DNA of 64,000 bases, taken from NCBI RefSeq assembly GCF_000526215.1, contig NZ_JAFQ01000004.1, forward strand, positions 6,572,001 through 6,636,000, in the 5' to 3' direction. The notes under the pieces are model-generated. The model ran no database searches and had not been told where the DNA came from. It saw nothing but the letters and a program-made list of their open reading frames with translations. The position numbers and the translations under genes were made by a program. Below, piece after piece: positions 24,301-42,212 of the stretch (within the stretch, counting starts at the first letter, position 1; every line of letters starts with the position of its first letter). The DNA is from Nocardia sp. BMG51109. GTDB taxonomy: Bacteria > Actinomycetota > Actinomycetes > Mycobacteriales > Mycobacteriaceae.

Positions 24301-24572
24301 AGGGCAGGTCCAGGCTCGCCTGCCTCCCGCCCGAGCCTCAGGGCACGCCGAAGCCGGCTGATGTAGGTCTGGACGGCGTTGCGCCCACCCCCGGGCCCGC
24401 TCTCACCCCAGACCGCATCGACGATCGAATGCACCGATACCGGACGGTTCATTTCCAAGAGAAGTGTCACGAAAACGGCCTGTTGTCTCGCCTGCCCGAG
24501 ATCGAAGGTTTCCGCATCCCGCGAGGCCGTAACCGGGCCGAGCACTCTGTAATGTATCTGCTGCTGTGTCAC
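21375..24572 (-). CDS. AfsR-like SARP regulator with NB-ARC and TPR domains
   Basis: This 1065-aa multi-domain activator has an OmpR-type winged helix (residues ~8-100, VLGPVTASRDAETFDLGQARQ), a bacterial transcriptional activation domain (~105-250), and an NB-ARC ATPase with P-loop GMAGVGKTALVVHA near 309 and LIVLDNAADADQV. TPR repeats run from about 680 to 1000. AfsR-type proteins switch on secondary-metabolite genes by binding direct repeats near -35 sites. It reads away from the DUF1772/SARP gene run and lies about 17 kb from the head of the polyketide operon, a plausible but unproven target. Confidence 0.9.
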   Translation of the reverse strand: MTQQQIHYRVLGPVTASRDAETFDLGQARQQAVFVTLLLEMNRPVSVHSIVDAVWGESGPGGGRNAVQTYISRLRRALRLGREAGEPGPALLWTERGYVLRGDPALVDHVQFERHMAAAELSGRHGDHTAAAEQIQAALDLWRGEPFTGLDGPLVEAERRRLSERYLAALECRASTDIDLHHYADAVAELSRLAAAHPLRERFQALLMIGLQRCGRQAEALAVFQDTRRRLSEELGIEPGPDLRSVQQQVLRGEFERSRHPHSEVLVGRNQLPGDIADFTGRQDEMRRLLAAIPRNEAQATVLVQAVDGMAGVGKTALVVHAAHRLRSRYPDAQLYIDLHGNAAERRPTEPAAALDTLLRAIGVPGELIPGEPDERMSLWRSKLAGRSALIVLDNAADADQVRPLVPGTPTCLVLVTSRRRLIDLEGCTTLSLNVLPREDAVTLFATIVGDDRGLAEPAAVAEIVLLCGHLPLAIRIAAGRLRARPAWRVHEMAERLRQPRRRLDHLTAGSRSVTAALTVSYNDLPGDHQQVFRLLGLHPGPDFDACAAAALADMDVVIVEQILEALIDVHLLEQAVSGRYSLHGLVAEYATILAQQSDSDCETAMTRLFDYYRYAAWTASTVIFPDAAVRSLDPVEPTTAVPALTDPRDCIAWLHSERPNLLAVAKYAARASWNGYTKQFSEILCHYLTGIHCSDEAVELHSDAIDVARRAGEWGEECRLLTNLGFTLWRTRHGPQALSMLSEAAHLAHARGDSAAEIRALHHCGLVYFRLGRYCDALISYHRALLLSRTVGDRFYEGHALNGLGLVYKLMDFYDEALSCIRQALRVADETKNVYLRSSALIRVGEIHLRMGRSDQVLVYLQAARQALAPLLPNTLFHNWLWVQIGNAHYCLGQHRAALYNLRKALGLAEKNGDLIPECYAHLGMGNVYRQQGRYHTAVAHYTRALTISRVTASPYEEMLAYDGIASVYFHTARVVDARRYWKKALAVASNLGVSEAQRIVGRLGAVDPDFATEQATRSALSHSTEFHVAAFSIRGDISPPLDMESPSYIVTAEGECGPPPLIR

Positions 24573-25352: not shown

Positions 25353-25382
25353 TTATGCAGGATGCAGTCTCGAGGGAAATCA

Positions 25383-27245: not shown

Positions 27246-27770
27246 ATGCCCACAGAGGTTGTCCGAATCACCGAATATCCTTTCCCGGCGGCCGAACTCC
27301 ACGATGCCCTCCTGAACCGGACATACTGGGAGGCACGGGTCGCGGAGATCGACGGCGCGGAAGCGTCACTGGATTTCTTCGAATCCGACGGCGCCACCGT
27401 ACGGCTGGCGGTCTCGAAACTCATTCCACCGGAACGAATGCCGGACAAGGCAGCGTTGCTGCGCCCCTCCGGGATCCGGTTCGAATACTCCGAGGAGTGG
27501 TCGGCTCTGGTCGACGGATGCGCCGAGGGCCGGACGGATGGCCGTGTCGTCGGTGCACCTGTTACGGTGTCGGCGAAACTGCTGCTGCGGGGAGATGATT
27601 CACGATGTGATCTCCGCTTCGCCGGCACCGTCACGGTGCACATCCCGGTCCTCGGCAAGCCGATCGAGGACCGGATGATCGACGGGGTCGCCGAAGACGC
27701 CGACGACATAGCATCGTTCACCCGACAATGGGTGCGAGCGCAGCACTGTCCGTCGACAGGGGGAAGCTGA
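27246..27770 (+). CDS. DUF2505 (SRPBCC-like) protein
   Basis: This 174-aa protein opens VVRITEYPFPAAELHDALLN and ends with VLGKPIEDRMIDGVAEDADDIASFT, as in DUF2505. This family is related to START/SRPBCC folds with a hydrophobic cavity. Its function is unknown; relatives bind or cyclise lipids and polyketides. AGGAG lies upstream of the ATG. Its TGA overlaps the ATG of the SDR gene, so the pair is co-translated. Confidence 0.75.
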   Translation: MPTEVVRITEYPFPAAELHDALLNRTYWEARVAEIDGAEASLDFFESDGATVRLAVSKLIPPERMPDKAALLRPSGIRFEYSEEWSALVDGCAEGRTDGRVVGAPVTVSAKLLLRGDDSRCDLRFAGTVTVHIPVLGKPIEDRMIDGVAEDADDIASFTRQWVRAQHCPSTGGS

Positions 27771-28672
27771 TGTCCGGATGGTTCGTCATCACCGGTGCGT
27801 CGTCCGGCCTGGGTTCGGCGACCGCGAAGGAACTCGCGAAGGCGGGCCACAACACGATCCTGGCGTGCCGCGATCGCGCCAAGGCAACCGCGATCGAACA
27901 CGAGATCCGTGCCGTCGCCTCGGCCGCGGGCGTGCGGATCGTGCCCATCGACCTCGCCTCTCTATCCTCGGTTCGCCACGGAGCGCGGATCATTGCCGAC
28001 CACGAGCTGGCCGGGATCATCTGCAACGCCGGGTTGCAGGTCGTGCACGGGGTCCGAGAATCGGCGGACGGATACGAACTCACCTTCGCGACCAACCACC
28101 TCGGCCACTTCCAGTTGGTCACACAACTGACCGACGGATTGCCGGCCGGATCGCGGATTCTGGTGGTGTCCAGTGATGTTCATCAGGGACCGCGAAAGTC
28201 GATGGGTTTCCCGGGGCCGGCGTGGACACATCCGAGCGATCTCGCCGACATCCGAGTTCAGCGCCATCGCACGTCCAGCCACGCCGGACGGGTACGCTAC
28301 GCCACCTCCAAACTGGCCAATGTGTATTTCACGTACGAGCTGGCCGAGCGTCTGCGTCCGCGCGGAATAGCCGTCAACGCTTTCAACCCGGGTCTGATGC
28401 CGGAGACCGGGCTGGCTCGCGACTATCCGACAGCGATGCGGCAGACCTATCGGTTGCTGGCCCCCGCGGTGCGGCGCCTGCTCCCGATCGGGCGCAGCGT
28501 CGCCGAGTCCGCTGCCGACCTCGCGTGGATCGCGACCGCCCCCGAACTCTCCGCCGTCACCGGTAGCTATTTCACCGGGCGAACACCGGTGGCGAGCGCG
28601 CCGGCCTCCTACGACCGGACGCGCGCCGAACTTCTGTGGAGGGCTTCGGAAGAGCTCGTGCAGGGGGCCTGA
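27770..28672 (+). CDS. Short-chain dehydrogenase, protochlorophyllide reductase-like
   Basis: This 300-aa SDR has the nucleotide motif TGASSGLG at the N-terminus, CNAG (IICNAGLQ), an active-site Ser near VVSSDVH and the YxxxK pair in YATSK. The length and the FATNHLGHFQLV motif match the light-dependent protochlorophyllide reductase/WW-oxidoreductase-like branch, which in actinobacteria serves general ketone or alcohol oxidoreduction. The ATG at 27770 is coupled to the DUF2505 stop. It converges on the minus-strand operon, 25 bp away. Confidence 0.87.
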   Translation: MSGWFVITGASSGLGSATAKELAKAGHNTILACRDRAKATAIEHEIRAVASAAGVRIVPIDLASLSSVRHGARIIADHELAGIICNAGLQVVHGVRESADGYELTFATNHLGHFQLVTQLTDGLPAGSRILVVSSDVHQGPRKSMGFPGPAWTHPSDLADIRVQRHRTSSHAGRVRYATSKLANVYFTYELAERLRPRGIAVNAFNPGLMPETGLARDYPTAMRQTYRLLAPAVRRLLPIGRSVAESAADLAWIATAPELSAVTGSYFTGRTPVASAPASYDRTRAELLWRASEELVQGA

Positions 28673-28697: not shown

Positions 28698-29102
28698 TCA
28701 ATCCCGTAGTGCCGCAGCCACGATCACACCGCCGACGAGTCCCGCCGCGGTCAGCAATTCCCAGGCATCCGGATGTCCGGTGTTGCCGAGGCGGTAACGT
28801 TTGTTCACCGTCACCGACGCATCGATGAGTTCGATTGCGACACCGAGCGTGAACCAATGCCGGACCGGTTGCCCCCGGCGCAGCGACCACAGTGTGCCGA
28901 TACCGATCACGGCGTCGCGCAGGCCGAGCGCCCGCATCGGCAGATGCACGGCCGCAGCATCGGCAGCTCCCGTCCAGGAGCCGACGACCGGCGTGGGCGC
29001 CACGAACATCGACGTGCCGATCAGTACTCGTGCCACACCTTGTGACCAGGCCATCTGTTTCACCAGCGGCTGCGCTCGCAGCACGAGCCGAGCCTCATTC
29101 AT
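28698..29102 (-). CDS. DUF4267-like small membrane protein
   Basis: This 134-aa protein has about four hydrophobic segments, the motif ALGLRDAVIGIGTLW and a membrane tail ending AALRD. It resembles DUF4267-type integral membrane proteins, whose function is unknown. It is the last gene of the long minus-strand operon and overlaps the oxidoreductase by eight bases. A role in the pathway is possible but not shown. Confidence 0.6.
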   Translation of the reverse strand: MNEARLVLRAQPLVKQMAWSQGVARVLIGTSMFVAPTPVVGSWTGAADAAAVHLPMRALGLRDAVIGIGTLWSLRRGQPVRHWFTLGVAIELIDASVTVNKRYRLGNTGHPDAWELLTAAGLVGGVIVAAALRD

Positions 29103-30069
29103 GGATTTCTCCCGTCCGTGGCTCCCGCCCGCCCGTGATCGACTCGTCGACGATCACCACGATCTTGCCGCGGGTGTGGCCGCCTTGGCTCAGGCGATGC
29201 GCCTGAGCGGTTCGGGACAGCGGAAAGACCGTGCTCACCTCGACCTGTATCACGCCATCGGCCGCCATCTGTGCCACCTCTTCCAGGTCGGGACGGTGTG
29301 GGCGCGCCAGCACATAGTGACCACCGGCCGAGCGGACTTTCGGATCGACGACCGAGGCCAACCTGCCCCCCGGCAAGAGCAGCGGTCCGAGCGCACGTAC
29401 CGTCCGTTTGCCCGCGGCGTCGAGCACCGCGTCGACTCCGCCGGAAGCCAGCGCCCGAACCGATTCCGCCAACCCGTACCGGTAATCGACAGGTTCGGCG
29501 CCGAGCGATTTCACGAACTCGTGGTTGTGCGTGCCGGCCGTACCGATCACTCGTGCACCGCGATGGGCCGCGATCTGAACCGCGAAGCTGCCCACCCCAC
29601 CCGCTGCGGCATGGACCAGCACGGTCTGTCCCTTCCGCACGTCGAGCACGCGCACGACCGCCTGATACGCCGTAATACCGGCCAACGGCAGTGCTGCGGA
29701 CTCGAGCCAGTCCAGTCCCGGTGGTTTGTGCGCGACCGCGCGGGTGGGCACCACGGCGATGTCGCCGAACGTGCCGTGGGACAGGTAGTCGTCACGTTGG
29801 AATCCGATCACCTCGTCGCCCGCGACGAACTCGGTTACGCCGAGGCCCACATCCACGACGACGCCCGCGAAGTCGCAACCGGGGACGACCGGAAACATCG
29901 TGTCGCAGACGGTGTCCAGATATCCCTCCCGCGCCTTCCAGTCGACGGGATTCACGGCCGCCGCCTTGACTCGAATCTTCACGCTGTCCAAGCCCATCTT
30001 CGGTTCCGGCAGGTCGCCGTACTCCAGGACGTCCGCGTCACCGAAGCGGTGGTAGAAAACTGCTTTCAT
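29095..30069 (-). CDS. NADP-dependent zinc-less MDR oxidoreductase
   Basis: This 324-aa medium-chain reductase of the quinone oxidoreductase type has an N-terminal GroES-like fold (AAAVNPVDWKAREGY, FPVVPGCDFAGVVVDVG) and a Rossmann fold AAAGGVGSFAVQIAAHRGA near residue 140. The structural-zinc Cys cluster of alcohol dehydrogenases is absent. It should reduce an enone or quinone with NADPH and could act as a stand-alone enoyl reductase for the polyketide operon. The gap to the methyltransferase is only two bases. Confidence 0.85.
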   Translation of the reverse strand: MKAVFYHRFGDADVLEYGDLPEPKMGLDSVKIRVKAAAVNPVDWKAREGYLDTVCDTMFPVVPGCDFAGVVVDVGLGVTEFVAGDEVIGFQRDDYLSHGTFGDIAVVPTRAVAHKPPGLDWLESAALPLAGITAYQAVVRVLDVRKGQTVLVHAAAGGVGSFAVQIAAHRGARVIGTAGTHNHEFVKSLGAEPVDYRYGLAESVRALASGGVDAVLDAAGKRTVRALGPLLLPGGRLASVVDPKVRSAGGHYVLARPHRPDLEEVAQMAADGVIQVEVSTVFPLSRTAQAHRLSQGGHTRGKIVVIVDESITGGREPRTGEIHE

Positions 30070-30071
30070 CG

Positions 30072-30800
30072 TTACTCCTCGACGCCGTCGCCCAGGCGCC
30101 GGGCGACACTCATATACGTGGCCGATACATCAGGGGTCCGCAAGAAAATCAATCGGCCGTCCCTCCTTCGACCGAGGATCGACAATCCGCGCATCTTGTC
30201 CGCCGGCACCAGACCGGCGTCCGCGAGATACCGGCGCATCTCCTTCGGCGTGATGAAGTCCTGCCAGGAGTGCGCCCCACGGGGGACGATCCGAGTCAAA
30301 TACTCGGGAATCCAGATCATCACGAGCCGCGACCGCATTGTCCGGTTGATCGTGTCGTAGAGGAACAGACCACCGGGTTTCAGAACGCGTGCGATCTCGC
30401 CGACCGTGCGTGCCGGATCCCGCACGTGTTCGAGGACGTCCACACAGGTGACGACGTCGAAACGGCCGGCGTCGTACGGCAGTTCCTCGGCCCTTCCCAC
30501 GGTGTAGGCGATCCGTTTGCCCGTCTGTTCGGCGTGCCGCCGCGCCGCTGCTATCAGTCGCGGCGACGGGTCGATCCCGGCGACATCGGCGCCGCGCTCG
30601 CACAGGAATTCGGTGGTGAACCCGCCACCGCAACCGACATCGAGTACCTGCTTGCCCGCCCATTCCCCGAGGAAACGGTCGAAGTATCGAAACCGCGGGG
30701 TTTGGAACGACGCCAGGCCCCGCATCCGTGAATCACTGTCCCACCAGCTGTCGGCGAACGCGCCGAAAAAGTAGTCGTCGTTCACGATGTGATCGGCCAT
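30072..30800 (-). CDS. SAM-dependent O-methyltransferase (UbiG-like)
   Basis: This 242-aa class I methyltransferase has motif I VLDVGCGGGFTTEFL near residue 55, the acidic end of strand two in GADVAGIDPS, and the post-motif VLEHVRDPARTVGEIARVLKPGG. The N-terminus (FADSWWDSDSRMRGL) resembles UbiG-type 3-demethylubiquinol O-methyltransferases. It probably methylates a hydroxyl of the operon's product. The ATG at 30800 lies inside the monooxygenase gene (19-bp overlap). Confidence 0.87.
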   Translation of the reverse strand: MADHIVNDDYFFGAFADSWWDSDSRMRGLASFQTPRFRYFDRFLGEWAGKQVLDVGCGGGFTTEFLCERGADVAGIDPSPRLIAAARRHAEQTGKRIAYTVGRAEELPYDAGRFDVVTCVDVLEHVRDPARTVGEIARVLKPGGLFLYDTINRTMRSRLVMIWIPEYLTRIVPRGAHSWQDFITPKEMRRYLADAGLVPADKMRGLSILGRRRDGRLIFLRTPDVSATYMSVARRLGDGVEE

Positions 30801-32011
30801 CGGTTCTCTTCTTCCGTACTCGGCATCGGCGGGGGCGGTGGGCTCCACCGCCTCGCGTAGGCGATCTGGTTGTGCTCGGCGATGCGGAACGCCAGCGCCG
30901 GCCACACGAGACGCATGAACACTTCTCGTGCGGCGATCAGCAGTGGATGCTCCACCGCGCCCATCCGACCGATCAGCCAGGCGACGCGTTGCATCGAGGC
31001 GGTCCGGCCGCGCCGTTCGCGCTCGTAGCGGCGTAATGCGCGTCCCGGATCGTCGCGGCAGGCATCCAGGCGTTCGGCGAGGACGAGCGCGTCCTCGAGG
31101 GCCTGGCAGGCCCCTTGGCCGATGTTGAACGTGATCGGGTGCACGGCGTCGCCGAGCAGCGTCACCCGGCCGATTCCCCAGCGGCGGTCCGGTTTACGGT
31201 CGAACACGTCGCTGCGGATGATGTCCTCCTCCGGGCTGGCCGCGAGGATGTCCTGGACCGGCGGCATCCAGCCCCGATGCCGCTCGGCGAGCATGGCCGC
31301 GACCCCGCGCTCGTCGTGACCTCCGGCCGGCCCGTTGGCCACGCTCATCCAATGCACGACGCCGGGCGCGACGTCGTAGTAGGTGAATCGGGTGCCACGA
31401 CCGAACAGTGCGTAGAAGCTGCCCGGCGGGATCAGCTCGTGCTCCAGGCGCCCTTTACCGCGCCAGGCGATATAGCCGTTGAACCGGGCCGGTGTGTCAC
31501 CGAACAGCCCGGCGCGGACGACGCTGTGGATACCGTCGGCGCCGATGAGGATGTCGCCCCGCTCGTGTCGTCCGTCGGCGAGCCGCACCGTGACCCCCTC
31601 CGAGTCCTGGTCGAAGCCGACCACTCGGGCCCCCGTGCGAACCGGATCACCGTGCAGCGCATCGTGCAGGATCGAATGCAGTACCGATCGCTCGACGGCG
31701 AGTGTCGGCCGGCCGTACTCGGTCACGAAATCACCGACCGGCCACGCACCGAACATCTCGCCCCGCCAGGTGCCGAAGTGACAGATCTGCTGTGCGGGCG
31801 CGACTTCCAGTACTGGGCCGGCGACGCCGAGGCGATCGAGGACGATCGTTCCGTTGGTCCATATATGCAGTCCGGCGCCGCCGTCCCGGAGCGCATCGGC
31901 GCATTCGAACACCGTCACGCCGAAACCCTTGCGCTGCAGGGCAAGAGCGGCGGCCAGACCACCTATCCCGCCTCCGGCGATCAGGACTCGCCGCACCGGT
32001 CGCGTCGGCAT
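30782..32011 (-). CDS. FAD-dependent monooxygenase (PHBH-like)
   Basis: This ~409-aa group A flavoprotein monooxygenase has the FAD dinucleotide motif VLIAGGGIGGLAAALALQ, the DG motif DILIGADGIHSVVR and the second FAD motif LLGDAVHPITFNIGQGACQALEDA. It should hydroxylate an aromatic or conjugated substrate using NAD(P)H and oxygen. The ATG at 32011 was chosen because AAGGAG lies just upstream; an earlier ATG at 32053 would overlap the SnoaL-like stop (ATGA). It is a likely tailoring enzyme. Confidence 0.88.
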   Translation of the reverse strand: MPTRPVRRVLIAGGGIGGLAAALALQRKGFGVTVFECADALRDGGAGLHIWTNGTIVLDRLGVAGPVLEVAPAQQICHFGTWRGEMFGAWPVGDFVTEYGRPTLAVERSVLHSILHDALHGDPVRTGARVVGFDQDSEGVTVRLADGRHERGDILIGADGIHSVVRAGLFGDTPARFNGYIAWRGKGRLEHELIPPGSFYALFGRGTRFTYYDVAPGVVHWMSVANGPAGGHDERGVAAMLAERHRGWMPPVQDILAASPEEDIIRSDVFDRKPDRRWGIGRVTLLGDAVHPITFNIGQGACQALEDALVLAERLDACRDDPGRALRRYERERRGRTASMQRVAWLIGRMGAVEHPLLIAAREVFMRLVWPALAFRIAEHNQIAYARRWSPPPPPMPSTEEENRWPITS

Positions 32012-32049
32012 CGTGGTATCTCCTTCGCCGAGGGCCGGATCGGTGGCGG

Positions 32050-32880
32050 TCATCGCCGCACCGCCCGAGCGGGAGTCGACGTCCGCCATTCGTGCGCGGG
32101 ATGCCCTGGGTCGTCGATGAACCGAGCCCAAGGATCAACCCCGAACACGCTTCTCGCCGCCTCCCGCAGCCAGCTGTCGAACGGATCCGTGGATCCGGTC
32201 AGCCGCCGCATCGCACGGCCCGGACTGCGGGCCTGCACGCTGTGCACCACGACCTGCATCCCCTGGACTTCCTGCTGCCGAAACCACTCGCCGACGATTC
32301 CCCCACGTCGTCGCGATGCCTGATAGTCCTCCGCCTTCGAGCCCGCGAGTTGCTGTCGCAGGGCACTCCAGCGTGCCGATGCGCCGGGCACGATGGGCAG
32401 AACCTGCGTGACGAACTGCGGTGGCGACAGGACGGCGGCCCGGCCCGGCCCGGCCGCCCCCGAGGCGAGCCAGCCCAGCCCCAGCGCGGACAGCATGCTG
32501 GATTCGACGCCGATCCCCCACCGCTCGGCAATGAGTCCGTCGGCCAGCCGCCAGACGACGACGCCTCGGAACTCGACCGCCCGACCCGTCGCCGGTAGCC
32601 CCAGGAACTCACCGAGATGCGTTCCGCGCCAGGTGTTGTGGATGACCACGTAGTCCCGGTGGGCGCTCATCTCCTCGATCGTGACGTGCAGGTCCGGAAA
32701 CCCGGTGCGCAATCCCGCGATGGTGTACTTGACTCCGTCGCGTCCCTGGGGCGCGCCCGGTAGCGGCTGGTGATCGACCACATCGGCCCGGTAGATCTCG
32801 TCGACGACGGAGAAGTCACCGCGGTTGACGAACTCGTCGAAGACGCGGCGGATGACGACCTTGTTGTATTCCTCATGCAT
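32050..32880 (-). CDS. SnoaL-like/ester cyclase family protein
   Basis: Of 276 aa, residues ~1-135 are a SnoaL-like NTF2 fold (FDEFVNRGDFSVVDEIY, HQPLPGAPQGRDGVKYTIAGL, GLPATGRAVEFRGVVVWRL). Members include polyketide cyclases and many proteins of other function. The remaining ~140 residues (with DPFDSWLREAARSVFGVDPWARFI) are an extension I do not recognise and are not usual for SnoaL. It overlaps the KAS III-like gene by eight bases. Ring closure of the polyketide is one possible role. Confidence 0.75.
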   Translation of the reverse strand: MHEEYNKVVIRRVFDEFVNRGDFSVVDEIYRADVVDHQPLPGAPQGRDGVKYTIAGLRTGFPDLHVTIEEMSAHRDYVVIHNTWRGTHLGEFLGLPATGRAVEFRGVVVWRLADGLIAERWGIGVESSMLSALGLGWLASGAAGPGRAAVLSPPQFVTQVLPIVPGASARWSALRQQLAGSKAEDYQASRRRGGIVGEWFRQQEVQGMQVVVHSVQARSPGRAMRRLTGSTDPFDSWLREAARSVFGVDPWARFIDDPGHPAHEWRTSTPARAVRR

Positions 32881-34000
32881 GGCGCACCGTCCCCGCCGGT
32901 GTCCGCGCCTCCCATTCCAGGGTCAGGCCCGCGTACACATAGCGGCTCGCCTCGACGCCGAGCAGCAGCACCGTGGCGCCGGGGCGGATCCTGCCGCTCA
33001 CCCAGCCCGCGTCGAGCGCCAGGGGAACCGCGGCCGAACCGGTCGCCCCGACGTCGGAGAGGTTCTCGACGATGCATTTCTGCAAGGCGGCACGGTCCTC
33101 ACCGGAGATGCCCACGTCGCCGAACCCTTCCGCGAAGTAGTCCGCGTTGCCCTCCGGCAGGACACACGCGTCGATATCGGAGAGCGCCAGTCCGCTGCGG
33201 GCGAGCATGTCGCGCAGGGCCGTGTGGAAGACCTGCGGGCCGACCGTGGTCGTACCCGCGACGTCGAGTTTGATCTCCACCAGGCGCTTACGTCGCGCCT
33301 GCTCCGAGGCGGGCAGATCGGTGCCGCCTCCGACGATCTGCATCCCCGGCCGGCGCATACCCCCCAGGCACTGTGTGCCGAACGCGTACCTTTCCGGCTC
33401 TCGCCGCGCCGAGTCCCGAGGCTGCGCTCGCAGCACCGCGGCACCGGCACCGTCGCCGAAGGTGTACAGGGTGAGCCGGTCCCGCATCCGAATCCGCTGC
33501 GGATCCTGGCCCAGGTAGAGGGGAACGAGCAGTGGCGAAATGGACTCCGCGCCGATCACCACCGCGGTGTCGTAGGTGCCGTCGGCGAGTAACCGCCGCG
33601 CGTAGTCCATGCCCTGCACGAATCCGGCGCATGCCGCCCGGAATTCCATTGTGGCGCACCGTTGCAGCCCCAGTTGCTCCTGCACGTAGGTCGCGGCCGC
33701 GGGCAGGGGATACTCCGGGCTCGCCGTCGACATCATCAGCAGATCCACCTCGGACGGATCCACTGCGGCGCGGTCGAGCGCCTGCCGTGCGGCGGCGACG
33801 GCCATTGCCGAGGTACCGGTTCGGTGCGAACCGGTTTCGGGGTCGGCGATCCAGTGCCGGGAGCGCACCTGAATCCCGTCGGCCACCTCCTCGGGCAGTG
33901 GCCCGCACAGGTCTGCGAGCCTCGCATTGTCGATCGGCGCACCGGGCAGGTGAGCTCCGGTGCTGAGGACGGACACATGTCGGTCGGTGGTAGTGGGCAT
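32873..34000 (-). CDS. KAS III-like protein lacking the His/Asn pair
   Basis: This 375-aa thiolase-fold protein of the FabH type has the nucleophile in FRAACAGFVQGMDYA near residue 122. Where FabH has the His of its HQAN motif, this protein has LPEGNADYF; where FabH has the Asn of its GNTSAAS-like motif, it has VGATGSAAVP. A Cys with neither partner should not decarboxylate malonyl-ACP normally. It may instead load or transfer an acyl group, as some KAS III-like acyltransferases do. It lies six bases after the fused KS gene. Confidence 0.82.
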   Translation of the reverse strand: MPTTTDRHVSVLSTGAHLPGAPIDNARLADLCGPLPEEVADGIQVRSRHWIADPETGSHRTGTSAMAVAAARQALDRAAVDPSEVDLLMMSTASPEYPLPAAATYVQEQLGLQRCATMEFRAACAGFVQGMDYARRLLADGTYDTAVVIGAESISPLLVPLYLGQDPQRIRMRDRLTLYTFGDGAGAAVLRAQPRDSARREPERYAFGTQCLGGMRRPGMQIVGGGTDLPASEQARRKRLVEIKLDVAGTTTVGPQVFHTALRDMLARSGLALSDIDACVLPEGNADYFAEGFGDVGISGEDRAALQKCIVENLSDVGATGSAAVPLALDAGWVSGRIRPGATVLLLGVEASRYVYAGLTLEWEARTPAGTVRHA

Positions 34001-34006
34001 ATGCGA

Positions 34007-36364
34007 TCACTCCGATTCACGAATGGGCGGACACAGGACCAAACCGGTGTGCGTGCCGCCGAGCGACGAAGAGTTGACGAGTGCCGGCCCGTAGGGAAAT
34101 CCGTTGTGCCAGCTCGCCATCGCCAGGGCGGCGCACAACTGCGCTCCGGCGCCACCGGGCTCACCGAGGATGCGCTTCGGTCGTTCGACGCGGCAGGAAC
34201 CCGGCAGACCGAGGCGCGCGATGGCCCGGTTCTCCGGGTTGTCGGCTACACGCAGCCCGGCCGCGTTGGCCCAGACGGCCGCGAGTCGATCCGCCCGCAC
34301 CCCGGCCTCCCCGAGCGCCCCACGCATGGCGCGCTCCAGCCCGTGGCCGCGCCGGTCCCAGCGGCCGATGCCGACCGCGTCGGAGGCCGTCGCGTATCCA
34401 CCCAGACCTGCCAGAATTCGGGCGCCCCGCGCACGAGCGAACGAGGATCGTTCCAGCAGCAGGGTGATGCTGCCTTCCGCGAGGAGATAGTCGCGCCCCG
34501 CGCGCCCGACGAGCAGCGACAGACCGCGATACGCGTCGATGGCGTAGTCCGACAGTTCGTCGACGGCGCAGCACAGGATCGCCTCGGCATGCCCGGCCCG
34601 CAACAGATCGGCGGCGACGGTCACCGCGGAGGCCCCCGACGAATGCCCCACTGTCGTGGTGGATGTGGGCCCCTTGGCGCCGAGCACCATCGCTACCTGC
34701 CCCGCGGCCGCATTGAAGACGGTGTTGGGAAATACGGCGGGATTGGCCATCGCGGGCCCGCCCGCGACAACCGGCAGGAAGAAATCTCCGATGCTCTGGA
34801 TCGGGCCGATTCCGGTGCCGAGGACAACGCCGATTCGCTCGTCGGCATCCAACCCGGCCTGTTCGAGCGCACCCCGGCAGGTCGCCACCGCAAGCTGTCC
34901 GAACCGGTCCATCCGGCGTCGTTCCCTCGGCGCGGTGTAGCGGCTCAGGTCGTCGGTGATCCGGGCGACCCGCAGACCGTCTTCGTCGCGCCCGAGCGTG
35001 CGGCCCGCGCGATAGGCCCGCCAGAGTTCGTCGACCGAGGTCCCGGCCGCGCTCACCACCGCGACGCCGGTGACGACGACGTCGTCCACCGGGAACCCGG
35101 CACTCGGGCGGGGGCGGGTCCCCGGCCTGGCGTAAGCGACGGTCGCGTTGGCTCCAGCGAAGGCGAAATTGTTCGACAGCGCGACATCCATGGCCAGCGG
35201 GCGGCCTTCGTTGGGTGCGGCGTCCAGCCCGCACCCGGGATCGGCACCGGTGAATCCCGCGGTCGGCGGGGCCCACTGCTCCTGTAGCGCCTTGACCGTC
35301 ACGATCGCCTCGACCGCACCGGCCGCGCCGAGCAGGTGCCCGATCATCGATTTCGTGCTGCTGAGCACCACCCGCTGCGCGGCATCGCCGAGCGCCGCAC
35401 GCACCGCATTGCTCTCCGCCGAGTCGTTCTTCGGCGTGCCGGTCCCGTGCCCATTGATGTACGCGACATCGGCACCGGACAACGCTGCCCCGGACAACGC
35501 GCTTCCGATCGCGCGCGCCGCCCCCTCACCGGCAGGGTGCGGGGCGGTCGCATGGTATCCATCGCCGGACATGCCGTAGGACAGGATCTCGGCAAGTACC
35601 GGGGCACCGGCGGCGTGCGCGATATCGGCACGAACGACGACGAGCATTCCGCTTCCCTCGCCCAGCGACAGGCCGTCGCGACTGCGCGAGTACGGCGCGG
35701 CCGGACGAGCCGACAACGACTCGACGCTGCCGAATCCCGCGTAGGCCATTTCGGTGAGCGCATCGCTGCCGCCCACCAGCATCGCGTCGGCACGGCCGGC
35801 GCGAATGATCTCGACGCCGTGTGCCAGGGCGTGAGCACTCGAGGCGCAGGCGGTATTGACCGTCAATACGGGCCCTCGAAGTCCGAATGCCGCGCTCAGT
35901 GCCTCCGCCATGGCGTGCGGCGGCACCATCAGCAGATGCCTGTCGTCCCGCGGCTTCGTGTCCCGCTCACGGGCTCGCCGCAAAGCCATTTCGCCGCTGC
36001 GTATTCCGCCGTTGCAACTGCCGAACGAGACACCCCAGCGAGTCGAGGGCACCTCGACGCCCGCACCGGACATCGCCTCCTCCGCGGCGACGAGAGCGAA
36101 ATCCAGTGCGGGCTCGGGATAACGGAGACCGAGCCGAGTCAGATAGTCGTACTTCGGCCTCCGCAACGCCTCGACCTCACCACCGATCGGAGCATCGAAC
36201 CCGTCCAGCCGAAGTCCGCGTATCGGGCCGATTGCCACGTGTCCGTTACGCACCGCTTCCCACAGGCTCGCCACGCCGGCACCGTGCGCCGTCACCGCAC
36301 CGAGCGACGTGACGACAACCCGCGAGCCCGAGATCCACTCGTCCATCTCGTAAAGCCCTCTCAT
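34007..36364 (-). CDS. Fused ketosynthase pair: active KS plus Cys-less KS (KS-CLF-like)
   Basis: This ~785-aa protein carries two ketosynthase domains. Domain one (~6-410) has the nucleophile in TVNTACASSAHAL near residue 168, His in INGHGTGTPKND and SSTKSMIGHLLGAAGA. Domain two (~425-785) has VGHSSGASAV at the nucleophile position (His instead of Cys) and no matching GHGTGT, so it resembles a chain-length factor. In type II systems these halves are separate genes forming a heterodimer. The ATG at 36364 overlaps the upstream stop (ATGA); an alternative ATG at 36346 has AGAGGG upstream. Confidence 0.87.
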   Translation of the reverse strand: MRGLYEMDEWISGSRVVVTSLGAVTAHGAGVASLWEAVRNGHVAIGPIRGLRLDGFDAPIGGEVEALRRPKYDYLTRLGLRYPEPALDFALVAAEEAMSGAGVEVPSTRWGVSFGSCNGGIRSGEMALRRARERDTKPRDDRHLLMVPPHAMAEALSAAFGLRGPVLTVNTACASSAHALAHGVEIIRAGRADAMLVGGSDALTEMAYAGFGSVESLSARPAAPYSRSRDGLSLGEGSGMLVVVRADIAHAAGAPVLAEILSYGMSGDGYHATAPHPAGEGAARAIGSALSGAALSGADVAYINGHGTGTPKNDSAESNAVRAALGDAAQRVVLSSTKSMIGHLLGAAGAVEAIVTVKALQEQWAPPTAGFTGADPGCGLDAAPNEGRPLAMDVALSNNFAFAGANATVAYARPGTRPRPSAGFPVDDVVVTGVAVVSAAGTSVDELWRAYRAGRTLGRDEDGLRVARITDDLSRYTAPRERRRMDRFGQLAVATCRGALEQAGLDADERIGVVLGTGIGPIQSIGDFFLPVVAGGPAMANPAVFPNTVFNAAAGQVAMVLGAKGPTSTTTVGHSSGASAVTVAADLLRAGHAEAILCCAVDELSDYAIDAYRGLSLLVGRAGRDYLLAEGSITLLLERSSFARARGARILAGLGGYATASDAVGIGRWDRRGHGLERAMRGALGEAGVRADRLAAVWANAAGLRVADNPENRAIARLGLPGSCRVERPKRILGEPGGAGAQLCAALAMASWHNGFPYGPALVNSSSLGGTHTGLVLCPPIRESE

Positions 36365-37644
36365 CCCATCTTGTTCAGCGCCACCGCGACCGCCTGCCCC
36401 TCCAGGCCGCGCGCCAGCGCGAGCGCGCCGTTCGGACGCGACTGCCGGGCGGCGCCCGGAACGAAATCCAGATCGCAACCACGCGCCGGTGTCCGCAGGT
36501 TCCGCGTCGCGGGCACGATGCCCGAATGCAATGCCATGGCCGCGACCGCCACGTTGAGGGCACCGGCGCCGCCGACCAGATGTCCGGTCTGCGGCTTGAC
36601 ACTGCTGATCTGCGCGTCCCGGGCGGCCGGGCCCAAAGCGGCATGCAGGGCCCGGGTTTCGGACACGTCGCCGGCCGGAGTGGCACACCCGTGCGCGGCG
36701 ATGTAGTCGATCGCGTTCGACAGTTCGCCGGCATCGGCGGCGGCGTACCGAATCGCTCGCGACAGACCACGGCCTCGCGGATCCGGTGCCGGGGGGCGCC
36801 TGCCGTCGTTGCCCGCGCCGAAACCGGTGATCTCCGCGTAGCATCGAGCGGCGCGTTGATGTGCCCGATCACGCTCCTCGATGACCAGCACGACCGCGCC
36901 TTCCCCCAGCACGGATCCGCTGTGGTCCCGGTCGAAGGGCCGGAAGGCCCGCTCGCCCAACTCGTTTCGGTGGGTGAGCACGCCCAGCCCGTCCATTCGT
37001 GACATCGCCCACCAGGTCGTGGCGTCATCGAAACCACCGGCGAGCGACAGATCGACCACACCGTGCCGCACGGCACGCATCGCACGCCCGATCGCGGTCG
37101 CCCCGGCATCCGCGGTGCCCGCATAGAAGCAATTCGCGCCTCTGATACCGAATTTCGACGACACGTGAAAGACGGCGCCGTTCTGCAGACCTTCCACATA
37201 TGCCAGCGGCGGTATCAGCGTCGCGGCATTCTCTCCGAGTGCACGCAGATCGACCGTGCCGTCGGGCTTCCGGATCCGGCCGAGTTCGGCGATCGTCTCG
37301 TCCCGATGACAAATGTCTTTGTTTCCCCCGAGGAACAGCCCCGCGCGGTGGCCCAGCTCCGCTTGTCCGAGCCCGGCGTCGTCGAGTGCCAGCAGGGCCG
37401 CGGCCACGGCCAGCTGATCGCCACGCGTGGACATCTTCCGTGCACGCGAGCCGAGATACCGGGACGGAACGAAATCGAGGATTTCCGCACCCAGGTGGGT
37501 GCGCAACGGGGTCGGGTCGAACAGCCGGAAATGGCCGATCGCCGTGCGGCCCGCCACGATGGCCGACCAGTTGTCCGCCACGCCGGTCCCGAGCGCGGTG
37601 ACGATACCGATGCCGGTGATCACCGCGCGACGCGGCGCCGTCAT
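36361..37644 (-). CDS. Ketosynthase-like protein without the catalytic Cys
   Basis: This 427-aa FabF-like protein opens RRAVITGIGIVTALGTGVADNW. At the nucleophile site near residue 175 it reads CFYAGTADAGATAIG, with Ala or Asp (depending on alignment) instead of Cys. It keeps AAHGCATPAGDVSETRAL and SVKPQTGHLVGGAGAL. This pattern fits a KS-beta/chain-length-factor partner, most simply for the intact KS encoded two genes upstream. Stop and start overlap both neighbours by four bases. Confidence 0.85.
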   Translation of the reverse strand: MTAPRRAVITGIGIVTALGTGVADNWSAIVAGRTAIGHFRLFDPTPLRTHLGAEILDFVPSRYLGSRARKMSTRGDQLAVAAALLALDDAGLGQAELGHRAGLFLGGNKDICHRDETIAELGRIRKPDGTVDLRALGENAATLIPPLAYVEGLQNGAVFHVSSKFGIRGANCFYAGTADAGATAIGRAMRAVRHGVVDLSLAGGFDDATTWWAMSRMDGLGVLTHRNELGERAFRPFDRDHSGSVLGEGAVVLVIEERDRAHQRAARCYAEITGFGAGNDGRRPPAPDPRGRGLSRAIRYAAADAGELSNAIDYIAAHGCATPAGDVSETRALHAALGPAARDAQISSVKPQTGHLVGGAGALNVAVAAMALHSGIVPATRNLRTPARGCDLDFVPGAARQSRPNGALALARGLEGQAVAVALNKMG

Positions 37645-38078
37645 GGCGCACTCGTTTCGACCGGAGATATCCGGGCCAACCGCAGTGCTCGTACGCTCGC
37701 CACCACACGACCGTCGACTGTCGCCGTGCCGCGCCAGAGCCCGGCCGCGGGTCCGGCCGCGTCGGTGGCGAACACGACCTGGTCTCCCGGAACGACGAAC
37801 CGCCGGAAACGCACCGCGGTCGCGGTGCACAACCGCCATTCGCCGGTGCCCGACGCCCGGGCCGCGAGCGCGATCATGCTTTCCAGCAGCAGCACGCCGG
37901 GCATGATCGGATATCGCGGAAAGTGATCCGCGAACAGCGGCAACGTTCCCGGGATGTTCCGGATCGCGACAGCGCGGATGCCGGGCTCGAGTTCGACGAT
38001 CCGGTCGAATCCGGGGACAGCGATCGACGCCGGTACGACGGCGACGACGTGTGCGGCATCGAGTTCGGCGGCGGTCAT
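37641..38078 (-). CDS. FabZ-like 3-hydroxyacyl-ACP dehydratase
   Basis: This 145-aa hot-dog protein has the FabZ signature FADHFPRYPIMPGVLLLESM. The catalytic His lies in DHFP and the acidic partner in LLLESM. It should dehydrate 3-hydroxyacyl-ACP to the trans-2-enoyl form, producing double bonds in the growing chain. It sits between the KS and KS-like genes with ATGA overlaps on both sides. Confidence 0.87.
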   Translation of the reverse strand: MTAAELDAAHVVAVVPASIAVPGFDRIVELEPGIRAVAIRNIPGTLPLFADHFPRYPIMPGVLLLESMIALAARASGTGEWRLCTATAVRFRRFVVPGDQVVFATDAAGPAAGLWRGTATVDGRVVASVRALRLARISPVETSAP

Positions 38079-39346
38079 GGCGAGTCCTCCCGGTGGGAAG
38101 CGATGACGAGGCTCGTGTTCGCCCCGCCGAAGGCGAGTGCGTTGATCAGTACCGTCGATACGCGCATGGACCTGGCACAGTGCGGCACGTAGTCGAGATC
38201 CAATGCACGATCGGGGATTTCGAGGTTGATCGTCGGCGGCACCGTGTATTCGCGCAGTGCCCCGACGCCGACGAGCACGTTCAACGCGGCCGCGGCGGCC
38301 GTCAGATGACCGGTCATCGACTTGGGAGAGGTGACCGCGAGGCGATACGCGTGGTCACCGAACACCTTCTTGATCGCCCTGGTTTCCGACACGTCGTTGC
38401 CCTGCGTGCCGGTGCCGTGCGCGACGACGACGTCGATATCGCGGATGTCCGAGCCGGAGTCGTCGATCGCGGCCTCCATCGCCTCGATCGCGCCCGCGCC
38501 GTCCGGCGGCGAGTCGGTGATCCGCCAGGCGTTGAGACTCGCTCCGTAGCCCCGGATTTCGGCATGGATATGCGCTCCCCGGGCCCGCGCCGATTCCCGT
38601 TCCTCGACGACGAACGCTACCGCGCCCTCCCCGATCACGAAGCCGGACCGTTCGTTGTCGAAAGGCCGCGACGCCGCACGGGGATTGTCGTTGTACCGGT
38701 CCGTCATCGCGCCGAGCAGGCCGAACCCCAGGATGTCGGCCCAGGTGGTCAGCGAGTCGTAGCCGCCGGCCACCATGAGCCGAGCGTCGCCCTCCTGGAT
38801 CATCCGCAGCGCCTCACCGATCGCATGACCGGAGCCCGAGCAGGCCGTGTGTATACCGACCATCGGCCCGGACGCACCGAGCATGCGCGCCATCGCGTTC
38901 AGTGCGAGGTTCTGATCGTCGGCCATGACCCGCTGCGGCGGCTGTGTCACGAATGCCGTGGGATCGCCGGATGTGCTTCGCACCCTGGCGATTTCGAGGA
39001 GGTGAGGCAGGTCGGGGCGCCCGACGCTGGCACCCATGGCGAGGCCCCGTTCGTCCGGCGGATACGCCGCGGCGCAGTCCGCGTCCGCGAGCGCCTCCGT
39101 CACGGCGGCGAGGCCGAATCGGCCGGGCCGGCCGATCCAGCGACGGTCGGCATCCGGCCGGATCGCGGAGTCGGGGTCGAAATCGTCGGGCACCTGTCCA
39201 CCGATTCGCACCGGAAAGCCGGTGCAGTCGAAGGTGGTGAGGCGTCCGACACCGCTGCGACCGGCGATGAGGCCGCGCCACGTCGTCTCGGCGTCGACTC
39301 CCAGTGGAGTGACCGCCCCCATTCCGGTGATGACCGCGCGTCTCAT
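38075..39346 (-). CDS. FabF-like beta-ketoacyl-ACP synthase
   Basis: This 423-aa condensing enzyme has an intact triad: Cys in GIHTACSGSGHAIGEA near residue 166, His in VVAHGTGTQGND and His in SPKSMTGHLTAAAAA. It opens MRRAVITGMGAVTPLGVDAETTW and closes NALAFGGANTSLVI. It should extend acyl chains from malonyl-ACP, probably as a partner of the Cys-less KS-like protein. The ATG overlaps the upstream stop. Confidence 0.9.
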   Translation of the reverse strand: MRRAVITGMGAVTPLGVDAETTWRGLIAGRSGVGRLTTFDCTGFPVRIGGQVPDDFDPDSAIRPDADRRWIGRPGRFGLAAVTEALADADCAAAYPPDERGLAMGASVGRPDLPHLLEIARVRSTSGDPTAFVTQPPQRVMADDQNLALNAMARMLGASGPMVGIHTACSGSGHAIGEALRMIQEGDARLMVAGGYDSLTTWADILGFGLLGAMTDRYNDNPRAASRPFDNERSGFVIGEGAVAFVVEERESARARGAHIHAEIRGYGASLNAWRITDSPPDGAGAIEAMEAAIDDSGSDIRDIDVVVAHGTGTQGNDVSETRAIKKVFGDHAYRLAVTSPKSMTGHLTAAAAALNVLVGVGALREYTVPPTINLEIPDRALDLDYVPHCARSMRVSTVLINALAFGGANTSLVIASHREDSP

Positions 39347-39795
39347 TGCGTCGCTTCCTTGCCCAGCAGATGTCGTGCCGTGGTACGGGTCTCGGCCGGA
39401 CTCTCCAGATTCTCCGCGTCGATGAGCGCGCACATGATGTCGCGAGCCTCGAATACCGTGGTCCCGTCCACCTCTATGCGCCCGTCGACCACAGCGGCCG
39501 CACTGTTGGTGGCGACGACGTCGACGTGCATGCGGAGTATGTCGCCCGGTCGCGGGTCCCGGTGGGCCGACGCCTCGCCCACTGTCAACAGTGCCGCCCG
39601 TTTGGTGTGTTCCGAGCTGAGTAACACCAGCCACGCACCCGCTTGGCAGAGTGCTTCGAGCGCCATCCCGAACGGCAGCCGTGGCCCGTTTTCCGTGAGC
39701 TGCCAATAGTCCTCGTAGACAGAGGTGACCTTGCTGGCGGTGATGGACCGCATCGACTCCCAGGATTCGATTCGGTCGACGAGGTGGAATCGCAT
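39343..39795 (-). CDS. Hot-dog (FabA/FabZ-like) protein lacking catalytic His
   Basis: This 150-aa protein opens RFHLVDRIESWESMRSITASKVTS, like FabZ-type dehydratases, but where the DHFP motif is expected it reads EDYWQLTENGPRLPFGMALEAL with no His. It may be a non-catalytic partner of the FabZ-like protein, as in two-subunit dehydratases, or act on another thioester. It lies 27 bp after FabG and overlaps the KS gene. Confidence 0.75.
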   Translation of the reverse strand: MRFHLVDRIESWESMRSITASKVTSVYEDYWQLTENGPRLPFGMALEALCQAGAWLVLLSSEHTKRAALLTVGEASAHRDPRPGDILRMHVDVVATNSAAAVVDGRIEVDGTTVFEARDIMCALIDAENLESPAETRTTARHLLGKEATQ

Positions 39796-39822
39796 ATCTG
39801 CCTTCCTGGCGAACTCGAGGCG

Positions 39823-40608
39823 CTAGCGGTGTGCGTTGGCGTTCAGGATCACGCCGAGCCGACGCGATATGCCGCCGTCGACGCGAATGAGCTCGCCGGT
39901 GATATAGGAGGCTGTAGGACCGGCGAGAAAGGCGACCGCCGCCGCGATGTCCTCGACAGTTCCGTACCTGCGCATCGGGACCTGCAGGTGGCCGCGACCG
40001 TCGTCGCGGACCATGACATGGGAAATGAGATCGGTCGGAATGATCCCGCCCAGAACGGCGTTCACGCGCACGCCGAACCGGGCGAACTCGACCGCCGAGG
40101 CGTAGGTGAACGAATTGATCGCTCCCTTGGAGGTCGAATAGTTCGACTGTCCGGGTAGTCCGAAATCTCCCGTGATCGAGGACACGTTCACGATCACCCC
40201 GTCGTACTGGCGCATGAAATGCTCCGCTACGGCGTTGGTGCAGTTGAACGTCCCGCCGAGGTTCACCTCGAGCACCTTCCACCAGTCGGCGAAGGTGGTC
40301 TCGTAGATCAGCCCGTCCGCGGCGGTGCCGGCATTGTTGACCAGGATGTGCAGACCACCCAGCCGCGTCGCGGCCTGGTGCACCAGCCGCCGGGCCTCGC
40401 GGGCGATCGAGACGTCCGCGCCGAGCGCGACGGCCGTGCCACCCCGTCCCCGGATCTCGCGCACCACTTTCTCGGCATCCTCCACGCGAGTGCGGTAATT
40501 GACGGCGACGGCCGCGCCCTGCTGCGCCAACTCCTGCGCGATCGCCCGGCCGATACCGCGAGAAGCCCCGGTCACCAGGGCGCTGCGGCCTTCCAACGGA
40601 GCCGCCAT
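39823..40608 (-). CDS. FabG-like 3-oxoacyl-ACP reductase
   Basis: This 261-aa SDR has TGASRGIGRAIAQEL for NADP(H), NNAG in ILVNNAG, active Ser in NVSSITGDF and YSTSK, and the closing GELIRVDGGISRRLG. It should reduce 3-oxoacyl-ACP to 3-hydroxyacyl-ACP. The start at 40608 sits two bases after the ACP stop. The longer open frame upstream of it is antisense reading of the ACP gene region and was not used. Confidence 0.9.
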   Translation of the reverse strand: MAAPLEGRSALVTGASRGIGRAIAQELAQQGAAVAVNYRTRVEDAEKVVREIRGRGGTAVALGADVSIAREARRLVHQAATRLGGLHILVNNAGTAADGLIYETTFADWWKVLEVNLGGTFNCTNAVAEHFMRQYDGVIVNVSSITGDFGLPGQSNYSTSKGAINSFTYASAVEFARFGVRVNAVLGGIIPTDLISHVMVRDDGRGHLQVPMRRYGTVEDIAAAVAFLAGPTASYITGELIRVDGGISRRLGVILNANAHR

Positions 40609-40610
40609 GA

Positions 40611-41021
40611 CTATCGCACGGCCTCGGTGGCGGCACGGTCGACGACGAGGTCGATCAGGTTCTGCACCGTGATCAAGCCGAGTACCTGATCCGCCTTCAA
40701 CGGACCGTCCAGCTGGCTGCGATCGAACTGTGGGAGAACCTTTTCCAGATGTGCCAGGCCGACGTCGCTGACCACCTCGTTCTCGTCGCCGAATTCCTCG
40801 TCCGGGATTCCTCCCTGCAGCAGGGCGGCCACATCGGATACGGCGATCTTGATCCCGGTATCGCGCTGAACGCGGAACATGATGTCGAGTAGATCGATGC
40901 TCTCGGCACCGAGCTCGTCGATCAGGGTGGCCTCGGGAACCACCTCCGCCGGGTCGAGGCCGAGCGCGTCCGCCACGGCGATCTGCACGATGCGTTCGTA
41001 ATCGCTGATGGTACTTGTCAT
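40611..41021 (-). CDS. Acyl carrier protein
   Basis: This 136-aa ACP has the phosphopantetheine Ser in ELGAESIDLLDIMF near residue 40. It is longer than the usual 80 aa; after the four-helix core it has an acidic stretch (DEEFGDENEVVSDVG) and a C-terminal extension. It should carry the growing chain for the KS, KR and DH enzymes of this operon. The ATG overlaps the FabD stop (ATGA). No phosphopantetheinyl transferase gene is in the window. Confidence 0.9.
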   Translation of the reverse strand: MTSTISDYERIVQIAVADALGLDPAEVVPEATLIDELGAESIDLLDIMFRVQRDTGIKIAVSDVAALLQGGIPDEEFGDENEVVSDVGLAHLEKVLPQFDRSQLDGPLKADQVLGLITVQNLIDLVVDRAATEAVR

Positions 41022-42043
41022 TTCCGTACTGCCTTTCGATGAGATGCGACTGGGACCGACAGATTGCGGAGCGCCGCGGCAAGCCGACGAGCGTCGCTGG
41101 TGCTTCGCACCGTGGCGTTGGCACCGCTGCGGTCGACGAAGCCACTCAGCACGCGACCCGGCCCCACCTCGAGGTAGTAGTCGATCGCGAACCACTGTGC
41201 GGTGCAGAGAAGTTCGGTCCACCGAACCGGCCCGGCCAGTTGACAGCGGAGCAATCGTCGGGCATGCTCGCCGTCCTCGACCACGCCCGCGGTCACCGAA
41301 CTCAGCACCGGAAAACTCGGGTCGGAAAAGGTGACGGCAGCCAGTTCGTCACTGAATTCCTCTGCTATCGAAAGCATCAGCGAGCAATGGAACGGTGCGC
41401 CGACATCGAGTGGGACGGTGCGATCGGCACCGGCCTGCCTCGCTTCCCGCGCCGCCGCCGCGACCGCGGCGCGACTGCCGGAGATAACGGTCTGCGTGGG
41501 CGCGTTCAGGCCCGCCACCTCTACGATCCCCCCGGTCGCTGCCGCCACGTTCACGCAGATCCGCTCGACGTCACCCGCGGGAATTCCGACGATCGCCACC
41601 ATCGAGCCGGGTATTCGATCGGCTACCTCACCCATCAATTGCCCTCGCCGGCGAACCAGCGTGAGCGCATCGGCGAAGGCGAGAGCTCCGGCCGCCACGA
41701 GGGCGCTGAACTCACCGAGGCTGTGCCCCGCGACCACGTCGGGGCGAAAACCATTCGCCACCAGGACCGAGTAGGTCGCGATGCTGGTGGTCACGATCGC
41801 CGGTTGTGCGACCTCGGTGCGGGTCAGGGTGTCCGGGCCGCCCGTGACGCACAGTTCGATCAGCGGAAGCCCCAGCGCCTCCTCCGCTTCGGCGAAGATC
41901 GGTCTCGCCGTCTGCGGATGCTCCCGGAGCAGATGATGGGCCATCGCCGCACGCTGGGAACCTTGGCCGGGGAACATCGCGAGTACTCGGGCGGGCGTAA
42001 CCTTCCCCCCGCTTCCGAGACCCGACACGGAAACTGTCGACAC
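41018..42043 (-). CDS. Malonyl-CoA:ACP acyltransferase (FabD-like)
   Basis: This 341-aa acyltransferase has AMFPGQGSQ, the nucleophile GHSLGEFSALVAAG near residue 104, a conserved Arg in RRRGQLM and His in GAPFHCSLM. It should load malonyl units on the operon's ACP. It is the first gene of the minus-strand operon. The start is a GTG at 42043, eight bases after a strong AAGGAGG site. Confidence 0.9.
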   Translation of the reverse strand: MSTVSVSGLGSGGKVTPARVLAMFPGQGSQRAAMAHHLLREHPQTARPIFAEAEEALGLPLIELCVTGGPDTLTRTEVAQPAIVTTSIATYSVLVANGFRPDVVAGHSLGEFSALVAAGALAFADALTLVRRRGQLMGEVADRIPGSMVAIVGIPAGDVERICVNVAAATGGIVEVAGLNAPTQTVISGSRAAVAAAAREARQAGADRTVPLDVGAPFHCSLMLSIAEEFSDELAAVTFSDPSFPVLSSVTAGVVEDGEHARRLLRCQLAGPVRWTELLCTAQWFAIDYYLEVGPGRVLSGFVDRSGANATVRSTSDARRLAAALRNLSVPVASHRKAVRK

Positions 42044-42170: not shown

Positions 42171-42212
42171 GTGGCAGCATCCAGTCACCGGTCTCGAGCG
42201 GCAGGGGCCGCG

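Follow-up and report, generated by a model that had tools for sequence, protein, structure and literature searches.

Highly reducing type II polyketide synthases (PKSs), in the definition used here (PMC10698177, in its available text), combine a ketosynthase (KS) and its chain-length factor (CLF) with a ketoreductase (KR) and a dehydratase (DH), the ishigamide system with its KS/CLF (PDB 6kxd) being an example. More than one KS-CLF pair may be present: the accessible part of PMC13311259 describes four validated pairs in the mbg cluster for o-dialkylbenzene (BGC0002441), a reducing type II system, and that of PMC11446937 proposes that the two KS/CLF pairs of Amycolatopsis region 2.11 (pachycephalamides) act sequentially and with differing degrees of reduction. 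Here we describe an operon on the minus strand, at positions 28698 to 42043, of a 64,000-nucleotide stretch of Nocardia sp. BMG51109 (the window; NZ_JAFQ01000004.1, positions 6,572,001 to 6,636,000), in which one of two such pairs is fused into a single protein. As judged by gene content, the cluster combines the KS-CLF, KR and DH expected of a highly reducing type II PKS with the KS/CLF/acyl carrier protein (ACP) minimal set of aromatic type II PKSs. It differs from the ishigamide system in the KS-CLF fusion and the second pair, as well as in a KASIII-like protein and a single long ACP. Like it, the reducing mbg cluster has more than one KS-CLF pair, a likeness of description and not of sequence, but the mbg pairs are separate proteins for which the available text mentions no fusion. 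The nearest published logic found, again by description, is that of Amycolatopsis region 2.11, where the pairs are encoded by separate genes (ctg2_1671/2 and 1674/5), an enoyl reductase is present and a fatty acyl group is made for a nonribosomal peptide synthetase. Sequential use of two KS-CLF pairs has thus already been proposed and is not new in principle.

A literature search, with subscription papers mostly outside its scope, found no description of a fused KS-CLF or of this cluster family, which leaves the word ‘undescribed’ unproved, and two lists of 120 best homologues gave generic source names where names were given. Neither revealed the close match to a characterized cluster for which the first-pass annotation of this DNA had allowed. 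That annotation had called the operon undescribed, which may hold for the pathway and its product but not for the cluster itself: Nocardia transvalensis (locus L034) carries the stretch from the MMPL exporter to the SARP regulator at 79–96% identity per gene, and distant copies exist in many actinomycetes. Three features go beyond the annotation, and for none of them did the search find a description: the joining of KS and CLF in one gene, the changed active site of the KASIII-like protein and the series of natural deletions.

The 14 genes placed on one strand in that annotation were recovered in the same order, as reading frames without internal stops and with families assigned by Pfam and NCBIfam scans of the 14 operon genes and five flanking genes. 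From 42043 downward they encode FabD, ACP, KR, a first hot-dog protein (HD1), KS1, a second hot-dog protein (HD2), CLF1, the fused KS-CLF, the KASIII-like protein, a SnoaL-like cyclase, a FAD-dependent monooxygenase (FMO), a methyltransferase (MT), a reductase and, ending at 28698, a small protein (Table 1). Neighbouring genes overlap at seven of the 13 junctions; the ATGA overlaps said to predominate account for only four of these (FabD/ACP, with the ACP start at 41021, HD1/KS1, KS1/HD2 and HD2/CLF1), the remaining three overlaps being of 8 to 19 bases.

The four KS units, two active and two Cys-less as had been claimed, are spread over three genes, since one protein of 779 residues unites the second active KS with the Cys-less unit that partners it. 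Both active KSs are thereby predicted to have a Cys-less partner, beside it in the case of KS1 and fused in the case of KS2 (the active half of the fusion), and the earlier reading, two KS/CLF-type pairs within a reducing type II PKS, is supported. KS1 and the N-terminal half of the fused protein carry the residues Cys-His-Lys-His. Among related loci (residue counts here and below use sequences from L034–L116 at 0.75–1.3 times the query length, with L121–L143 left out) the catalytic Cys, two His and Lys of KS1 are kept in 49 of 49 sequences and those of KS2 in all 50, while the corresponding positions of CLF1, located by eye on the KS motif, present Ala (46), His (42), Lys (47) and His (47) in 49 sequences. 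In the C-terminal half of the fusion the Cys is replaced by His and the second His by Glu. An AlphaFold2 (AF2) model of the fused protein has a mean predicted local distance difference test score (pLDDT) of 82.6 and a predicted template modelling score (pTM) of 0.90; the structure look-up lists matches spanning residues 5–409, and the C-terminal half was compared by sequence. The fused protein has 1027 homologues at E<=1e-20. Among solved structures every KS unit scores higher in phmmer with FabF than with the ishigamide KS, the values for KS2 being 270 bits for FabF, 171 for the ishigamide KS and 161 for ApeO; PDB 9s5h is a further KS-like match to the KS units.

Ordinary ACPs have some 75–95 residues. 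Those of the operon family have 130–155 (n=47 within the length filter). The Pfam family PF00550 has 139 matches in the genome (150 of 162 candidates scored), of which two lie in the window, in the operon ACP and in a type I PKS. HD2 keeps the dehydratase His in 42 of 42 sequences and a Glu or Asp in 34 of them. HD1 has no His at the FabZ catalytic place, as placed by eye on the FabZ motif, while its Glu and Gln (LEALCQ) are invariant (42/42).

The catalytic triad of FabH is Cys-His-Asn. In the KASIII-like family the Cys is present in 36 of 51 sequences, the His is absent from all 51 and the Asn is replaced by Ala in 46, a sample that excludes the weak relatives L102 and L105 (motif PQAN). Pairwise alignment places a proline or a deletion at the His position, with the adjacent Gln replaced by Glu, and the resulting Pro-Glu283-Gly motif is invariant; the AF2 model has a pLDDT of 88.9. 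With both His and Asn missing, the protein is unlikely to prime as ZhuH does and, going by these residues, should not act as an ordinary FabH. Its second-best sequence match in the Protein Data Bank (97.9 bits) is the tetronate-forming AbyA1 (PDB 5by7), which likewise lacks the FabH His and has in common a C-terminal Glu-(Ser/Ala)-Ser-(Lys/Arg) motif, but which retains the Asn that the KASIII-like protein does not. Genes for supply or loading of glyceryl-ACP were absent from the Pfam scan of the 14 operon and five flanking genes. Ring closure by a KS-like partner has a precedent in AmcF-AmcG of cispentacin biosynthesis, a KS and a partner for which the name ‘cyclization factor’ has been proposed (PMC10698177, available text); there it accompanies a single C2 extension and a five-membered ring, the genes are separate, and the window proteins do not reach the cut-offs for AmcF and AmcE.

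To follow the family, 107 loci (the window, L034–L116 and L121–L143) were tabulated, with genes assigned by best tblastn match. The core set of KR, HD1, HD2, fused KS-CLF, KS1, CLF1 and KASIII-like protein is complete in 61 of the 107, or in 55 of 100 once seven duplicate contigs, six of them with the full set, are removed. Full sets are found in Actinomycetota, in the cyanobacterium Atlanticothrix (L049), in the ktedonobacterium Tengunoibacter (L057) and, among Bacillota, in Brevibacillus (L090) and Paenibacillus (L073, L080). The KASIII-like marker occurs in 22 of 148 Nocardia genomes, 19 of which also have the fused KS-CLF. Gene divergences correlate across loci with rho between 0.63 and 0.94 over 21 gene pairs (1326 locus pairs, which are non-independent), the highest value being that of the KASIII-like protein with the fused KS-CLF.

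Three Nocardia loci (L121–L123, in genomes G050, G057 and G070) are without KR, HD1, HD2 and the fused KS-CLF but keep FabD, ACP, KS1, CLF1, KASIII-like protein, SnoaL, FMO, MT and SARP at 46–72% identity, the matches for ACP, KS1, CLF1 and KASIII-like protein lying no more than some 100 bases apart. The fused KS-CLF is absent from these whole genomes at E<=1e-60 (seven candidates scored per genome). A tree unites the three loci in a single clade (support 1.0) that lies within the full clusters, grouped with L043/L044/L125/L127 at 0.924 and with the window at 1.0, which makes loss likelier than gain. The four missing genes occupy three separate positions in full clusters, and their joint absence suggests that KR, HD1, HD2 and the fused KS-CLF belong to a single functional module; conversely SnoaL, FMO and MT, which remain with KS1, CLF1 and the KASIII-like protein, probably work on the portion of the molecule that these contribute. 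The tree was built from loci with KS1, CLF1 and KASIII-like matches minus eleven names, some without a match anyway: the duplicates L126, L128, L129 and L131–L134 and the fragmentary L070, L074, L077 and L088. Eight of its 64 loci scored without the reducing set but with KS2; six form another clade, discussed below, while L067 and L142 lie outside it and each retain one of KR, HD1 and HD2. A further 18 of the 107 loci have exactly KR, a FabZ-like HD2 homologue and fused KS-CLF, without KS1, CLF1 or KASIII-like protein. These simple clusters, from Bacillota, Chloroflexota and some actinomycetes and with FabD in 16 of the 18, appear by gene content to be a similar reducing module on its own; their fused KS-CLF is 36–44% identical to the KS half of the window protein, and their KR and hot-dog matches of 27–44% may be general family likeness.

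Several side observations accompany this distribution. In the two simple clusters inspected, on a Priestia plasmid (L116, 8904–9986) and in S. curacoi (L097, 8889–9908), a GcvT-like aminomethyltransferase gene lies between the FabZ-like gene and that of the fused KS-CLF. L114 and L115 are linear Streptomyces plasmids on which the cluster adjoins deoxysugar and acyl-CoA carboxylase genes, and 16 plasmid records, all from Streptomyces, match, or are listed as matching, 80% or more of the fused KS-CLF. Frankia and Protofrankia carry family members (L040, L053, L074, L088), the isolate name of L074 suggesting a root nodule. A 3.6-Mb genome (G286) has two KASIII-like genes (L142, L143), the second without a KS-CLF match in 20 kb.

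From the observed gene content, fusion, active-site residues, loss pattern and family distribution we infer a stage order, a polyene character, a ring closure and a product as follows, giving about an even chance to the proposal that the cluster is a two-module type II PKS which builds a reduced, probably polyene, chain and then adds an unreduced extension and closes a ring. FabD would load malonyl onto the single long ACP, and the fused KS-CLF with KR, HD2 and its partner hot-dog HD1 would carry out cycles of condensation, reduction and dehydration. As the operon has no dedicated enoyl reductase, its sole candidate being the reductase at 29095, the growing chain should be a conjugated polyene. 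KS1/CLF1 would next extend the chain by a few ketides without reduction. The KASIII-derived protein and the SnoaL cyclase would close this end to a ring and release the product, and the monooxygenase and methyltransferase would decorate the ring, with the MMPL protein exporting the product and the SARPs switching the cluster on. More tentatively, and as a possibility that we would not favour, the KASIII-derived protein may be a dedicated non-decarboxylating cyclase or release factor within a widespread class, present in several phyla, whose naturally fused KS-CLF and separate KS/CLF pair serve one long ACP in turn; loss of one module would then leave a plain ring compound in place of a polyene-ring hybrid. 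Because type II subunits are separate proteins, KS-CLF pairing and the hand-over between reducing and non-reducing stages are difficult to study in these systems. The fusion fixes the pairing of one unit, and natural clusters with and without the reducing module open the division of labour to product comparison. The KASIII-like protein would represent a new use of the thiolase fold, and the compounds made by such clusters in Nocardia, Streptomyces, Frankia and elsewhere are likely to be new chemistry.

A number of observations weigh against the two-module proposal. Fifteen of the 51 KASIII-like proteins are without even the Cys, and a role for this protein in ring closure is a guess; which KS acts first is likewise deduced. 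The losses in L121–L123 belong to one lineage and so count as one piece of evidence, the absence of KR and hot-dog genes there was scored in 20-kb stretches, and the midpoint-rooted tree takes in 64 of the 107 loci. The simple clusters with a reducing module on its own are distant relatives of that in the window. Six actinobacterial loci (L046, L055, L056, L059, L087, L115), the clade mentioned above, retain the fused KS-CLF, while KR and HD1 were not found within 10 kb (18 kb in L115) and HD2 gave one weak match (31%, L056); in one of the six the operon includes an aldo-keto reductase. The fused enzyme can thus work without these partners or with some encoded elsewhere.

The same six loci, in which the two pairs would not be split by reduction, lend some weight to a one-stage polyene synthesis in the manner of aryl polyenes (APEs), where both KS pairs would extend one reduced chain from a non-aryl starter and one pair would raise throughput as ApeR does. 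APE clusters combine ApeQ, ApeH-ApeP, ApeO-ApeC and ApeR, a homodimeric FabB-like second KS (PMC8358021, available text), so that KR, paired hot-dog proteins, KS-CLF and a second KS co-occur in them as in the window. We nevertheless regard this alternative as unlikely, because KS1/CLF1 persists in L121–L123 without KR, hot-dogs or fused KS-CLF and would therefore work without reduction, and because each active KS has an adjoining or fused Cys-less partner. The APE analogy drawn in the first-pass annotation also fares badly: there is one ACP in the operon in place of two, KS2 is nearer to FabF than to ApeO, and the aromatic lyase is absent from the window, in line with that annotation's remark that genes for a tyrosine-derived starter are lacking (the three PF00221 matches of the genome lie at 5.48 and 8.12 Mb and none in the window at 6.572–6.636 Mb). 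A Nocardia gene cluster family (GCF 8) termed ‘aryl polyene’, reported in 82 of 101 genomes (PMC7413640, available text), is far commoner than the KASIII-like family, a comparison of frequency alone.

Similarly doubtful is an aromatic type II PKS of the R1128 kind, in which the reducing module and the KASIII-like protein would make a short, reduced acyl starter for full elongation by KS1/CLF1. The altered KASIII-like active site speaks against priming of the ZhuH type, a complete second KS-CLF exceeds the needs of a short starter, and none of the 12 PF03364 aromatase/cyclase matches of the genome falls in the window, in agreement with the earlier remark that an aromatase set is missing, although a SnoaL cyclase is present.

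The Nocardia envelope contains mycolate, and all KS units score best with FabF beside an MMPL gene, whose divergent position is as first annotated; a specialized fatty acid synthase making a long or unusual acyl chain for export to the envelope is nonetheless improbable, given the SARP regulators, FMO, MT and SnoaL, the restriction of the KASIII-like marker to a minority of Nocardia genomes, the lack of an MMPL match within the available extent of many related loci and the deoxysugar genes near the two Streptomyces relatives examined. Those deoxysugar genes also led us to consider the tropolones isatropolone and rubrolone, which were set aside as their clusters have conventional aromatic type II sets. 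No link was made between flavoaffinins and the simple Bacillota clusters, the available text of PMC11839114 giving no gene cluster.

Table 1. Genes of the operon and its flanks in the window (coordinates in window positions).
Feature	Coordinates	Strand	Remarks
FabD-like malonyl-CoA:ACP transacylase	41018..42043	-	341 aa, GTG start; TIGR00128 265.8 bits, above cut-off; Acyl_transf_1
ACP	40611..41021	-	136 aa; motif GAESIDLL; PF00550; ATG at 41021 overlaps FabD stop
FabG-like KR	39823..40608	-	261 aa; Pfam and NCBIfam
Hot-dog protein HD1	39343..39795	-	150 aa; PF07977
KS1, active KS	38075..39346	-	423 aa; motifs TACSGS, AHGTGT, KSMTGHL
Hot-dog HD2, FabZ-like dehydratase	37641..38078	-	145 aa; PF07977; HFPRYPIMPGVLLLE
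CLF1, Cys-less KS partner	36361..37644	-	427 aa; Cys replaced by Ala, both His and Lys kept
Fused KS-CLF	34007..36346	-	779 aa; N-half active KS (TACASS), C-half inactive KS
KASIII-like protein	32873..34000	-	375 aa; Cys124 present, FabH catalytic His and Asn absent
SnoaL-like cyclase with C-terminal extension	32050..32880	-	276 aa; PF07366 113.7 bits, residues 9–123
FAD-dependent monooxygenase (FMO)	30782..32011	-	PF01494; start 32011 preceded by GAAGGAG; alternative ATG 32053
S-adenosylmethionine (SAM) methyltransferase (MT)	30072..30800	-	242 aa; PF08241
Zinc-type/quinone-oxidoreductase-like reductase (MDR)	29095..30069	-	324 aa; PF13602, PF08240
Small protein	28698..29102	-	no Pfam match; apparent counterpart of a DUF4267 protein annotated in Streptomyces cluster L114
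MMPL-family exporter, divergent	42171..44426	+	PF03176 263 bits; 85% in N. transvalensis L034
SDR oxidoreductase	27728..28672	+	adjoins the operon in L034, L043 and L044 too
DUF2505 protein	27246..27770	+	Pfam
SARP-type regulator (BTAD, NB-ARC)	25362..27224	+	84% in L034
Second SARP-like regulator	21375..24572	-	frame 1065 aa; 34% to first SARP over 22851–24566

Beyond the MMPL gene, positions 46115–54505 of the minus strand encode a single 2796-aa iterative-type PKS with the Pfam order KS-AT-DH-MT-ER-KR-ACP-TE. Three N. transvalensis stretches (L129, L144, L145) gave only domain-level matches to it, of 27–34%, and no clear counterpart; it is probably separate from the cluster. Elsewhere in the genome two KS frames are grouped with an ACP and a Polyketide_cyc match at C4:8073438–8077284, probably a classical aromatic type II PKS, and a KS (423-aa frame) lies near a Polyketide_cyc match at C4:6698417–6700500, about 62 kb past the end of the window.

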